Virus record (IMG/VR): IMGVR_UViG_3300032235_000715
Coordinates: 1 to 64,000 of that record
Source of the DNA: a virus
Direction: 5' to 3' (one strand)
Length of the DNA: 64,000 bases
The notes below the pieces were generated by a model. The model made no database searches and was not told the DNA's origin. It saw only the letters and a list, made by a program, of their open reading frames with translations. Positions 60,590-63,982 of the stretch are shown in pieces (position 1 is the first letter of the stretch; every line of letters begins with the position of its first letter). Position numbers and translations under genes: made by a program.

Positions 60590-61534
60590 ATGGCAAGTGA
60601 ATTTCTCCTCACTGAAAAATACCGTCCTCAAGTAATTGATGATTGTATTCTTCCTGATGAAACTAAAAAAACGTTTAAGGAGTTTGTGGCAAGGGGGGAG
60701 ATTCCCAATCTTCTTCTTGCAGGACCTCCTGGTATTGGTAAAACGACTATTGCAAAAGCACTATGCAATGAACTGGGCGCAGATTATTATGTAATTAATG
60801 GATCAGATGAAGGGCGTTTCTTGGATACTGTAAGAAACCAAGCAAAGAACTTTGCTTCGACCGTCTCACTTACGGGATCTTCTAAACACAAGGTCATCAT
60901 TATCGACGAAGCAGACAATACCGGTAATGATGTTCAACTCCTACTACGTGCGAATATTGAGGCATTTTATAACAACTGCCGCTTCATCTTCACCTGTAAC
61001 TACAAGAACAAGATTATTGAACCTCTTCACTCTCGATGCGCAGTTATCGATTTCACAATCAAAGGGAAGCAAAGAGTTCAACTTGCAGGAAGTTTCTTTC
61101 AACGACTTCAAACAATCTTGGATGCGGAAAAGATTGAATACGATCAAAAAGTCGTTGCGGAACTTGTTACAAAACACTTCCCGGATTTTCGTAGGGTTCT
61201 AAACGAGATTCAACGATACTCTACTGGTGGTAAAATTGATTCTGGTATTCTTGCATCCTTCTCTGACGTTTCTGTAAATGAACTCATCAAGAACCTTAAA
61301 GACAAGAACTTTACAGAGGTTCGTAAGTGGGTGGTCTCCAACCTGGATAACGATGCTAGTAACCTACTTCGCAGGATTTATGACGCCTCTTTTGATAACC
61401 TTTCACCCCAATCTATCCCTGCTGCCGTTCTTATTATTGCTAAGTATCAATATCAATGTGCGTTCGTTGCTGATCAAGAAATAAATCTTCTTGCTGCTCT
61501 TACCGAAATTATGGTAGAGTGTTCTTTTATTTAA
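60590..61534 (+). CDS. 44: gp44 clamp loader large subunit
   Basis: A 314-residue AAA+ protein (T4 gp44 has 319). Walker A is GPPGIGKT (45-52), Walker B IIIDEAD (103-109), and the arginine-finger SRC motif is LHSRC (146-150). Four gp44 and one gp62 load the gp45 clamp onto primer-template junctions. The start lies three bases after the previous stop. Downstream, a T-rich 34-base spacer leads into two inserted genes before gp62. Confidence 0.96.
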   Translation: MASEFLLTEKYRPQVIDDCILPDETKKTFKEFVARGEIPNLLLAGPPGIGKTTIAKALCNELGADYYVINGSDEGRFLDTVRNQAKNFASTVSLTGSSKHKVIIIDEADNTGNDVQLLLRANIEAFYNNCRFIFTCNYKNKIIEPLHSRCAVIDFTIKGKQRVQLAGSFFQRLQTILDAEKIEYDQKVVAELVTKHFPDFRRVLNEIQRYSTGGKIDSGILASFSDVSVNELIKNLKDKNFTEVRKWVVSNLDNDASNLLRRIYDASFDNLSPQSIPAAVLIIAKYQYQCAFVADQEINLLAALTEIMVECSFI

Positions 61535-61568
61535 AGTTTGTATTTTATTTTTGATTTTTTTTATTATT

Positions 61569-62105
61569 ATGATTGACATTGAACAAATTAATCTTAAAGA
61601 ATTTTTTGGTTGCGTTGAGGCGACTAATACTCCTCAAATGAAATCAAATGCATTTAAAACATTTCGCACGTACTTGCAAGAGAAATCATTTGCTAAATGG
61701 TCTAACGGACAATTGCAATATGTGGGAGATTATGAGGACGGCAGAGACTTCGTTGGTAGTGATGGAACTTTTTATGAAATGAAAGGTTCTTTAGGGATCT
61801 TCAATAAAAATGGGTCATGTAAAAGGGTAGTCCTTATTAATAAAAGACCTGGAAAGAATAAAAAACAATTGGCAAAAGAGGATATTAAAAAAACATTTGA
61901 CTATATGCTATTGGTTGATACTAAAAAAATGTCGATAGCATACACGACATGGGAAACGGTTTATTCTAGGGCAGAGTGTGATGGTGCAGGAGCAACATTT
62001 AAGTTGGAACCAGGTGATTATGAATTTTTGGCAAGAGATATTGTTCCTCTAACTAAAAAAATAACATCAACAGAATTGTTGAGTTCAATGGAAGAAATTT
62101 TATAA
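61569..62105 (+). CDS. Putative PD-(D/E)xK-type nuclease, inserted between gp44 and gp62
   Basis: A 178-residue protein from the ATG at 61569; a TTG six codons upstream is less likely. Residues about 66-73 read DGTFYEMK, a D-x4-E-x-K arrangement like the PD-(D/E)xK active site, with a following basic strand (KRVVLINKRPGKNKKQ). The C-terminal half has DYMLLVDTKKMSIAYTTWE. A restriction-endonuclease-like fold is suggested only by this motif and is not certain. It sits directly before the DruA-like gene, one base apart, and interrupts the usual gp44-gp62 order. It might be part of a two-gene unit. Confidence 0.45.
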   Translation: MIDIEQINLKEFFGCVEATNTPQMKSNAFKTFRTYLQEKSFAKWSNGQLQYVGDYEDGRDFVGSDGTFYEMKGSLGIFNKNGSCKRVVLINKRPGKNKKQLAKEDIKKTFDYMLLVDTKKMSIAYTTWETVYSRAECDGAGATFKLEPGDYEFLARDIVPLTKKITSTELLSSMEEIL

Positions 62106-62106
62106 T

Positions 62107-63165
62107 ATGTTATCTCAAGAGCAAGCAATTTGGGCAGCAGATCAATTTATTGATTATTATTCAAAATTTAATAGAATTGATGACTATTTGAGATTTGTAA
62201 AAAGTAGTAGAATTCAAGATTCGTCTGGAAAATTATTTGGTTCAGAAGATGAAATATTTTGTAATTTCAATCTTCATCCAAATGATATGAAATTTTCTAT
62301 TCATATTGTAGATACTTCTCCAAAACCAAAAACAAAATATAATCAAGAATTATATTCTAATATTTTGAATGAAACCGCTTCAAATCCTATTGAAGAAGCA
62401 ATCCCCGGAAGAACAATTAAATGGATAGTTACTGAGGACACTGCAAATAAAATTATAGGGGTTATTAGATTTGGTTCACCAACTATTAACTCCAAACCAA
62501 GAAATGATTACTTTGGCGAAGTTCTTCCTTTGTCAAAGATTAATAATGAGTTTGTGATGGGATTTAATATTGTCCCAGTACAACCATTTGGGTATAACTA
62601 TCTTGGTGGAAAACTTTTAGCATTATTGGCATCTTCTAATGAACTCAAACGACAATTTGATGCAAAGTATGAAACTGATCTTCATTACTTTGAAACAACT
62701 TCATTATACGGTACGACAAAAGGAGTATCCATGTATGATGGTCTTAAACCTTATCTTAGACACATAGGAGATACTGAAAGTAATTTTCTTCCATTATTTC
62801 ATGATGATTATTTTCGCGAAATGTTCTGGTGGTTTAATAATAATGCCAATGGCGGAGAAAGATTAATCTCAGCAGATAAGTCTTCAAAAAAACTTAAAAT
62901 TCAAACTAAGATGATTTCAATTATCACAAAGTCACTTAAAGATACTTCAAAACTGCTTGAGTTTAAAAAATGTATTGAACATGCTAAGTCTCTAACCGAA
63001 AAGAAAAGGTATTATATTTCTAAATTTGGATATGAACCTGATGAAGTGATTAAATGGTGGAAATCTAAAGCAACACGAAGATATGAAAAGTTGCTTCAAG
63101 ATAACAAACTTAGGACTGAACTTGAATTATGGAAACCTGGAGTTGATTTGGAGATTATTCGATGA
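62107..63165 (+). CDS. DUF4338/DruA-like protein, inserted between gp44 and gp62
   Basis: A 352-residue protein. The middle (about 110-215) reads IIGVIRFGSPT, then FNIVPVQPFGYNYLGGKLLALLASS and FETTSLYGTTKG, the pattern of DUF4338 proteins, the family that includes DruA of the Druantia anti-phage system. The C-terminal third is helical and basic (RRYEKLLQDNKLRTELELW). Proteins of this type occur in marine T4-like phages without assigned function. Its stop overlaps the gp62 ATG (ATGA), so it is expressed with the clamp loader. A role in DNA metabolism, exclusion of other phages or counter-defence is possible. Confidence 0.65.
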   Translation: MLSQEQAIWAADQFIDYYSKFNRIDDYLRFVKSSRIQDSSGKLFGSEDEIFCNFNLHPNDMKFSIHIVDTSPKPKTKYNQELYSNILNETASNPIEEAIPGRTIKWIVTEDTANKIIGVIRFGSPTINSKPRNDYFGEVLPLSKINNEFVMGFNIVPVQPFGYNYLGGKLLALLASSNELKRQFDAKYETDLHYFETTSLYGTTKGVSMYDGLKPYLRHIGDTESNFLPLFHDDYFREMFWWFNNNANGGERLISADKSSKKLKIQTKMISIITKSLKDTSKLLEFKKCIEHAKSLTEKKRYYISKFGYEPDEVIKWWKSKATRRYEKLLQDNKLRTELELWKPGVDLEIIR

Positions 63166-63545
63166 GTATTGAACTTAAAGATTGGTTGAACTCAATAAAT
63201 TTTTCAAAAGAAAATTTAATTGAGGATTCTAGTAGTATTAAAGACTATTCTCCGTACGTTATTAATCGTTGTTTGTCGGGTGAAATTGATTGTGTTCTCT
63301 TCGCCAATGAAATGAACCTAAATCACCACCTGGACAAAGATATGCAATATTCTTTTTTTCTAAATACTATAAGAAAAAGGAAGAGATATTCTCCCTGGCT
63401 CCGTAAAGATAAAATTAAAGACTTAGAGTGTGTGAAACGTTATTATGGATATAGTAACGAAAAGGCATCTCAAGCATTGAAAATTTTGTCAAAAGAGCAA
63501 ATCGACTTTATTAAACAAAGACTTGAAATTGGCGGAACAAAATGA
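63162..63545 (+). CDS. 62: gp62 clamp loader small subunit
   Basis: A 127-residue protein (T4 gp62 has 187). Conserved stretches are LKDWLNSINFSKENLI, YVINRCLSGEIDCVLFANEMN and RKRYSPWLRKDKIKDLECVKRYYGYS, the usual cyanophage gp62 pattern. It bridges the four gp44 subunits. It overlaps the previous gene by four bases and its TGA overlaps regA (ATGA), so all are translationally coupled. Confidence 0.92.
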   Translation: MSIELKDWLNSINFSKENLIEDSSSIKDYSPYVINRCLSGEIDCVLFANEMNLNHHLDKDMQYSFFLNTIRKRKRYSPWLRKDKIKDLECVKRYYGYSNEKASQALKILSKEQIDFIKQRLEIGGTK

Positions 63546-63982
63546 CAATTCAAACAATTGAACCACAGGTAAATTGGTCTCAAGACCAAATGGTTGAAGT
63601 TATCCTAAACGAACCAGATGATTTTCTAAAAGTAAGGGAAACTTTAACTCGTATTGGGGTTGCATCCAGGAAAGAGAAAAAACTCTATCAATCTTGCCAC
63701 ATCTTACACAAGCAAGGTAGATATTACATTGTTCATTTTAAGGAGTTGTTTGCTCTTGATGGTAAGCACGCCAACTTGACCGTGAATGATGTTCAACGAC
63801 GCAATCGCATTGTTCGCCTTCTTGCAGACTGGGGACTTATTACGGTTCTAAATCAAGATAAAGTATCTGATATTGCTCCTTTGAATCAAATCAAAGTTCT
63901 TGCTTATAAGGATAAGGGAGACTGGATTCTTGAACAAAAGTATAACATTGGTAAAAAAGGAAAAGCAGTAGAAACCGAATAA
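63542..63982 (+). CDS. regA: RegA translational repressor
   Basis: A 146-residue protein (T4 RegA has 122). Conserved blocks are ILNEPDDFLKVRETLTRIGV, KLYQSCHILHKQGRYYIVHFKELF and DVQRRNRIVRLLADWGLI. RegA binds the start regions of early mRNAs, including replisome genes, and represses their translation. It lies between gp62 and, by T4 order, gp43 beyond the window. The extra C-terminal residues are Lys-rich. Confidence 0.95.
   Translation: MTIQTIEPQVNWSQDQMVEVILNEPDDFLKVRETLTRIGVASRKEKKLYQSCHILHKQGRYYIVHFKELFALDGKHANLTVNDVQRRNRIVRLLADWGLITVLNQDKVSDIAPLNQIKVLAYKDKGDWILEQKYNIGKKGKAVETE

Follow-up and report, generated by a model that had tools for sequence, protein, structure and literature searches.

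A predicted type II restriction endonuclease and a DruA/DUF4338-family protein in the clamp-loader operon of a T4-like cyanophage: a candidate restriction-modification-like pair

The window, that is, the whole stretch of 64,000 nucleotides analyzed here by computation, is part of a 68-kb virus record and derives from a T4-like cyanophage. In its clamp-loader operon, two genes, denoted P1 and P2, lie between gp44 and gp62:

60590..61534, + strand: gp44, clamp-loader large subunit, left border of the cassette (Gp44_lid and AAA domains, phrog_168)
61535..61568, + strand: T-rich spacer of 34 bases between gp44 and P1, read from the sequence, with no evident Shine-Dalgarno motif
61569..62105, + strand: P1, predicted PD-(D/E)xK type II restriction endonuclease, 178 amino acids, ATG start (model; invariant D60-x9-E70-M-K72)
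62107..63165, + strand: P2, DruA/DUF4338-family protein with a GNAT acyltransferase fold, 352 amino acids, predicted to modify DNA bases in place of Dam (PF14236, model)
63162..63545, + strand: gp62, clamp-loader small subunit, right border of the cassette (Phage_clamp_A, phrog_225)
63542..63982, + strand: regA, translational repressor, next gene of the operon (PF01818)

As the preliminary description had it, the open reading frames of P1 and P2 are separated by one base (62106), the T-rich spacer lies upstream of the pair, and the P2 stop and the gp62 start overlap in ATGA at 63162. The identities of gp44, gp62, and regA were confirmed by Pfam and PHROG, which also placed gp45 and a pyrimidine-dimer glycosylase in the flanks. 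Against close relatives, dN/dS values of 0.02–0.13 were obtained for P1 and P2; both are under purifying selection and are therefore not chance open reading frames. In one contig otherwise near-identical to the window (L002:4534-4564, L087), P2 lacks its first 32 residues, possibly through a deletion or an assembly error.

P1 matched no family in Pfam, PHROG, or NCBIfam, PADLOC gave only a weak CARF3 match (E 0.01), and a P1 profile found no match among the sequences of solved structures. Its AlphaFold model (pLDDT 91.7) has type II restriction enzymes as nearly all of its top structural neighbors. The top VIA-align rows were ThaI (Z 9.2 over 165 residues) and, tied with it for first place, DpnI (Z 9.2), together with NaeI and NhoI (8.5 each), PvuII, and EcoRV, and the eight best Foldseek matches in the PDB were Eco15I/NhoI (E 5e-4 to 8e-3). 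Both programs placed P1 in the restriction-endonuclease core fold, in agreement with the nuclease proposed beforehand. The motif proposed along with it, D-x4-E-x-K (D65-x4-E70-x-K72), had to be corrected: D65 varies, whereas D60-x9-E70-M-K72, a PD-(D/E)xK motif, is invariant in 36 sequences of the P1 family. The active site of PvuII is formed by D58, E68, and K70, with the same spacing as D60, E70, and K72 of P1. Model and motif predict that P1 is a PD-(D/E)xK type II restriction endonuclease.

The P1 family was found only in metagenomic contigs. It was absent from all cultured phages searched, and there was no cellular relative among 78 candidate stretches. A distant homologue occurs in the cultured phage S-SM1 (L406:2523-3035; GU071094 43522-44034; Foldseek 4e-11, profile E 3e-4), where it directly follows a helicase gene, far from the S-SM1 Dam gene and with no methyltransferase beside it.

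P2 scored 47.2 bits against PF14236 (cut-off 27, E 2.2e-12), which bears out the DUF4338 pattern read earlier in 62107–63165 and assigns the protein to the DruA/DUF4338 family, the match spanning only residues 78–196 (119 of 352). A GGK loop occupies residues 167–169. Relatives of P2 reached 35–41 bits, and the S-T4 protein 21.6 bits, below the cut-off. NCBIfam names no family for P2. It is a member of phrog_19197 (E 2e-163), a family of unknown function corresponding to T4-LIKE GC 1216, the "putative cytoplasmic protein" of cyanophages, the records of which carry no functional assignment apart from labels such as "methylcarbamoylase mom" (S-SCSM2R) and "iron-binding protein" (S-CREM1).

The P2 model (pLDDT 84.7, pTM 0.82) showed a GNAT fold: the top VIA-align rows were mostly GNATs (best Z 9.8), and Foldseek concurred, its matches also including tRNA-acetylating GNAT toxins. 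A published analysis (PMC10853773) likewise classes DUF4338 as a GNAT. Among the tied matches was the crystal structure of Mu Mom (8bv8, Z 9.1), with 177 of 222 residues in one of the longer alignments. P2 did not match the Mom family profile (PF25680; hhalign probability 0.4%), and the resemblance, as judged from the model, is one of fold only and not of sequence. A P2 profile had no match among the sequences of solved structures. The C-terminal tail of P2 (window 63148–63162) keeps the residues IIR unchanged across 47 relatives, even where gp62 does not follow. A clamp-binding role for this tail was considered and rejected, since it bears no resemblance to the gp43 tail of S-SM2.

Comparison of related loci revealed the gap between gp44 and gp62 to be a two-slot cassette. 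Slot 1 holds P1, an unrelated family denoted c2, or neither; the occupant of slot 2 is a D12-class adenine methyltransferase gene (Dam) or a DruA-like gene. P1 was seen with either slot-2 gene, and Dam and the DruA-like gene each also occur without a partner in slot 1. In a survey anchored on gp44 alone, with no selection for the cassette, 66 complete gp44–gp62 spans carried Dam (36), a DruA-like gene (23), or neither (7), and none carried both. The hypergeometric value for this exclusion, 6e-12, assumes independence and ignores shared ancestry; as related phages are non-independent, it is an indication and not a probability. Dam and a DruA-like gene were likewise never found together in 248 dereplicated loci. 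Among cultured cyanophage records, gp44 was present in 461, Dam in 413, and a DruA-like gene in 26, with about 95% carrying one or the other; these counts include GenBank/RefSeq duplicates and were cross-checked record by record only for 11 DruA-like phages. A D12 methyltransferase was absent from the entire genome in 10 of these 11 phages; in the remaining phage it lies at a distance of about 86 kb.

The family c2 (180–230 amino acids, motif DHCxSPQF; L174:2908-3495 and about 67 other loci) lies before the DruA-like gene at many loci of the latter and was never seen with Dam. It gave no convincing fold or family; of 20 members, 3 had a weak match to SegE GIY-YIG (E 0.0012). Further insertions in the gap include HNH-type genes, a 2OG-Fe(II) oxygenase, and small genes. 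In L036, L092, and L155, genes that look HNH/NUMOD-like by eye are located between gp44 and the cassette and are possibly homing endonucleases.

Exactly one of Dam and the DruA-like gene was present in 65 of 66 dereplicated P1 loci, at a median gap of 3 nt from P1, and the remaining locus is cut by a contig end. P1 was found more often with Dam, and the DruA-like gene often stands alone or with c2, so the expectation that P1 and P2 would always come and go together was not borne out. In a tree of the 66 P1 proteins the partner changed at least five times, and a single origin of the DruA-paired P1s was rejected (p-AU 7e-38); the DruA-like tree implies three to five gains or losses of P1. Pairs also exist outside the clamp operon. 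In L067 and L068, P1 and Dam occur together next to thyX-like and ribonucleotide-reductase-like genes (both by eye) and PhoH (Pfam). In L054, L057, L058, and L060, contigs of a different, unrelated phage type without gp44 in the stretches examined, P1 follows a different D12 methyltransferase, which is 18–21% identical to those of cyanophages and has M.DpnII as its closest solved relative. P1 accompanies adenine methyltransferases of two lineages. A further gene in the cluster of the DpnII-like methyltransferase and P1 (L057:2547-3116; L054:1643-2179) looks EcoRI-like by eye (PDGG, FEGKKQ, GNAIER), an identity that Pfam and phmmer did not support.

Within the operon, adjacency alone counts for little, because 59 of the 66 surveyed spans carry Dam or a DruA-like gene anyway. 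The weight of the case rests on the swap of slot-2 genes, the switching of partners, and the pairs outside the operon. On balance, P1 and P2 probably form a phage-borne restriction-modification-like module within the replication operon, in which the DruA-like GNAT protects and P1 cuts unprotected DNA. During synthesis of phage DNA, P2 would attach an acyl-type group to its bases, adenine being the likeliest. The mark would shield phage DNA in place of Dam, the D12-class adenine methyltransferase that may fill the protecting role in most relatives, and P1, blocked by the mark, would cut unmarked DNA of the host chromosome, of a competing phage, or of both. The pair would thereby act as a self/non-self system, with marking during replication suggested by the position of the P2 gene in the replisome operon and of the DruA-like gene next to gp43 in HTVC008M. 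If a restriction enzyme is to retain its specificity while its protectors are swapped, both protectors must mask the same site; we therefore infer that P2 modifies DNA, probably at adenine, the alternative being that the specificity of P1 changed along with its partner. The interpretation in the preliminary description is supported in part: the exchange of Dam and the DruA-like gene points beyond an exclusion or counter-defense unit to a more specific, restriction-modification-like pair. Against this reading, a common hotspot is no proof of common function, and the mutual exclusion could reflect alternative hosts. Also counting against it are the usual protein or small-molecule substrates of GNATs, the lack of sequence similarity between P2 and Mom, the absence of P1 from the cultured phages searched, and the helicase-side position of the distant P1 homologue in S-SM1.

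Several known systems offer a comparison. As in type II restriction-modification of the DpnII/Dam type, an endonuclease fold adjoins an adenine methyltransferase in most P1 relatives, and in these Dam-paired relatives the partner is a DNA-modifying gene. The modification gene may be an orphan, and P1 never is, except at a contig end. The window pair differs in having a DruA-like GNAT in the place of the methyltransferase and in being carried by a T4-like phage; here, the adjacency seen in 65 of 66 loci bears on membership in this class through a partner whose DNA-modifying activity is a prediction. For jumbo phages, Iyer et al. (2021; PMC7824862) predicted Mom-REase fusions and proposed for them the self/non-self logic described above, with the nuclease directed against superinfecting or host DNA. 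The window pair resembles these in coupling a GNAT that modifies phage adenine, an activity predicted here for P2, to a nuclease of restriction fold. Unlike the fusions, in which a Mom-family domain is part of one protein, P2 belongs to the DruA/DUF4338 family, is encoded by a separate gene in the clamp-loader operon, and is exchangeable with Dam.

With Druantia type I, P2 shares the DUF4338 domain of DruA (PF14236). A Druantia system was not seen: the DUF1998/MZB domain of the DruE helicase (PF09369) had no match in the 68-kb record, P2 has clamp-loader genes as neighbors, and only 119 of its 352 residues match the DruA profile. Judged by sequence, the locus is not Druantia, because the record lacks a DruE domain. 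In type II Druantia, the methylase DruM is found where type I has DruA-D. DruM is a requisite of type II Druantia (PMC8565338). The role of DruA has been listed as unknown (PMC7251935).

An alternative that we consider unlikely is that P2 redirects the host by acylating a tRNA or a protein (host RNA polymerase, the clamp, or its loader), and merely uses the same cassette site as Dam. GNATs mostly modify proteins or small molecules. The tRNA-acetylating toxins among the Foldseek matches, the location in the replisome operon, and the invariant C-terminal tail would suit such a role, but P2 replaces Dam in its slot without ever being found with it, the same nuclease family adjoins both, and 10 of 11 DruA-like phages lack a D12 methyltransferase.

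It is less probable still that the gap is a mere insertion hotspot with P1 and P2 as unrelated cargo. Other genes do enter the gap, 7 of the 66 spans hold neither modification gene, and the DruA-like gene often lacks P1. However, P1 is usually the immediate neighbor of the modification gene, whereas other insertions are found further upstream. Moreover, P1 follows D12 methyltransferases elsewhere in genomes and into another phage type with a different methyltransferase, and each switch of partner lands on the other modification gene.

We regard it as improbable that P1 depends on modification for cleavage and targets marked DNA of the host or of a rival independently of the neighboring enzyme. 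DpnI, Eco15I, and NhoI, all modification-dependent, are among its closest structures, but so are ThaI (tied first), NaeI, and PvuII, which cut unmodified DNA, and methylation by a neighboring Dam would expose the DNA of the phage itself to an m6A-dependent nuclease. It is highly improbable that P1 acts together with the DNA mark not in restriction but in replication or repair, by resolving junctions or by nicking strands in the manner of MutH. MutH and Holliday-junction resolvases have the same fold and P1 lies within the replisome operon, but these enzymes reached only Z 4.9–6.3 compared to 8.4–9.2 for the best restriction enzymes. Moreover, a replication gene would be expected to be common, whereas P1 is rare and was absent from cultured relatives.

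If the pair is indeed a restriction-modification-like module, it would add a phage weapon that distinguishes own from foreign DNA, and it would account for the retention of one modification gene in almost all T4-like cyanophages, usually within the clamp-loader operon. DruA/DUF4338 is found both in a defense system and in phages. That it trades places with an adenine methyltransferase next to one and the same nuclease leads to the concrete prediction that DruA-family proteins may modify DNA bases. A broader proposal, for which we put the chances a little short of even, is that DruA/DUF4338 constitutes a second, Mom-independent GNAT family that writes a new acyl-type DNA-base mark, interchangeable with Dam in cyanophages and sometimes accompanied by a dedicated restriction enzyme; by extension, DruA would be a DNA-marking component of Druantia type I. 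Cultured phages with the DruA-like half include S-SM2, S-SRM01, S-CREM1, and HTVC008M, whereas S-SM1 and Syn19 are of the Dam type.

The palindromes AGCT (0.30), CATG (0.38), and GGCC (0.44) are strongly under-represented in the window (1–64000), and GATC stands at 0.77. As a clue to a target site, this depletion was uninformative, since nearly all related loci show an equally low AGCT value, irrespective of cassette type. The AGCT depletion possibly stems from host restriction pressure.
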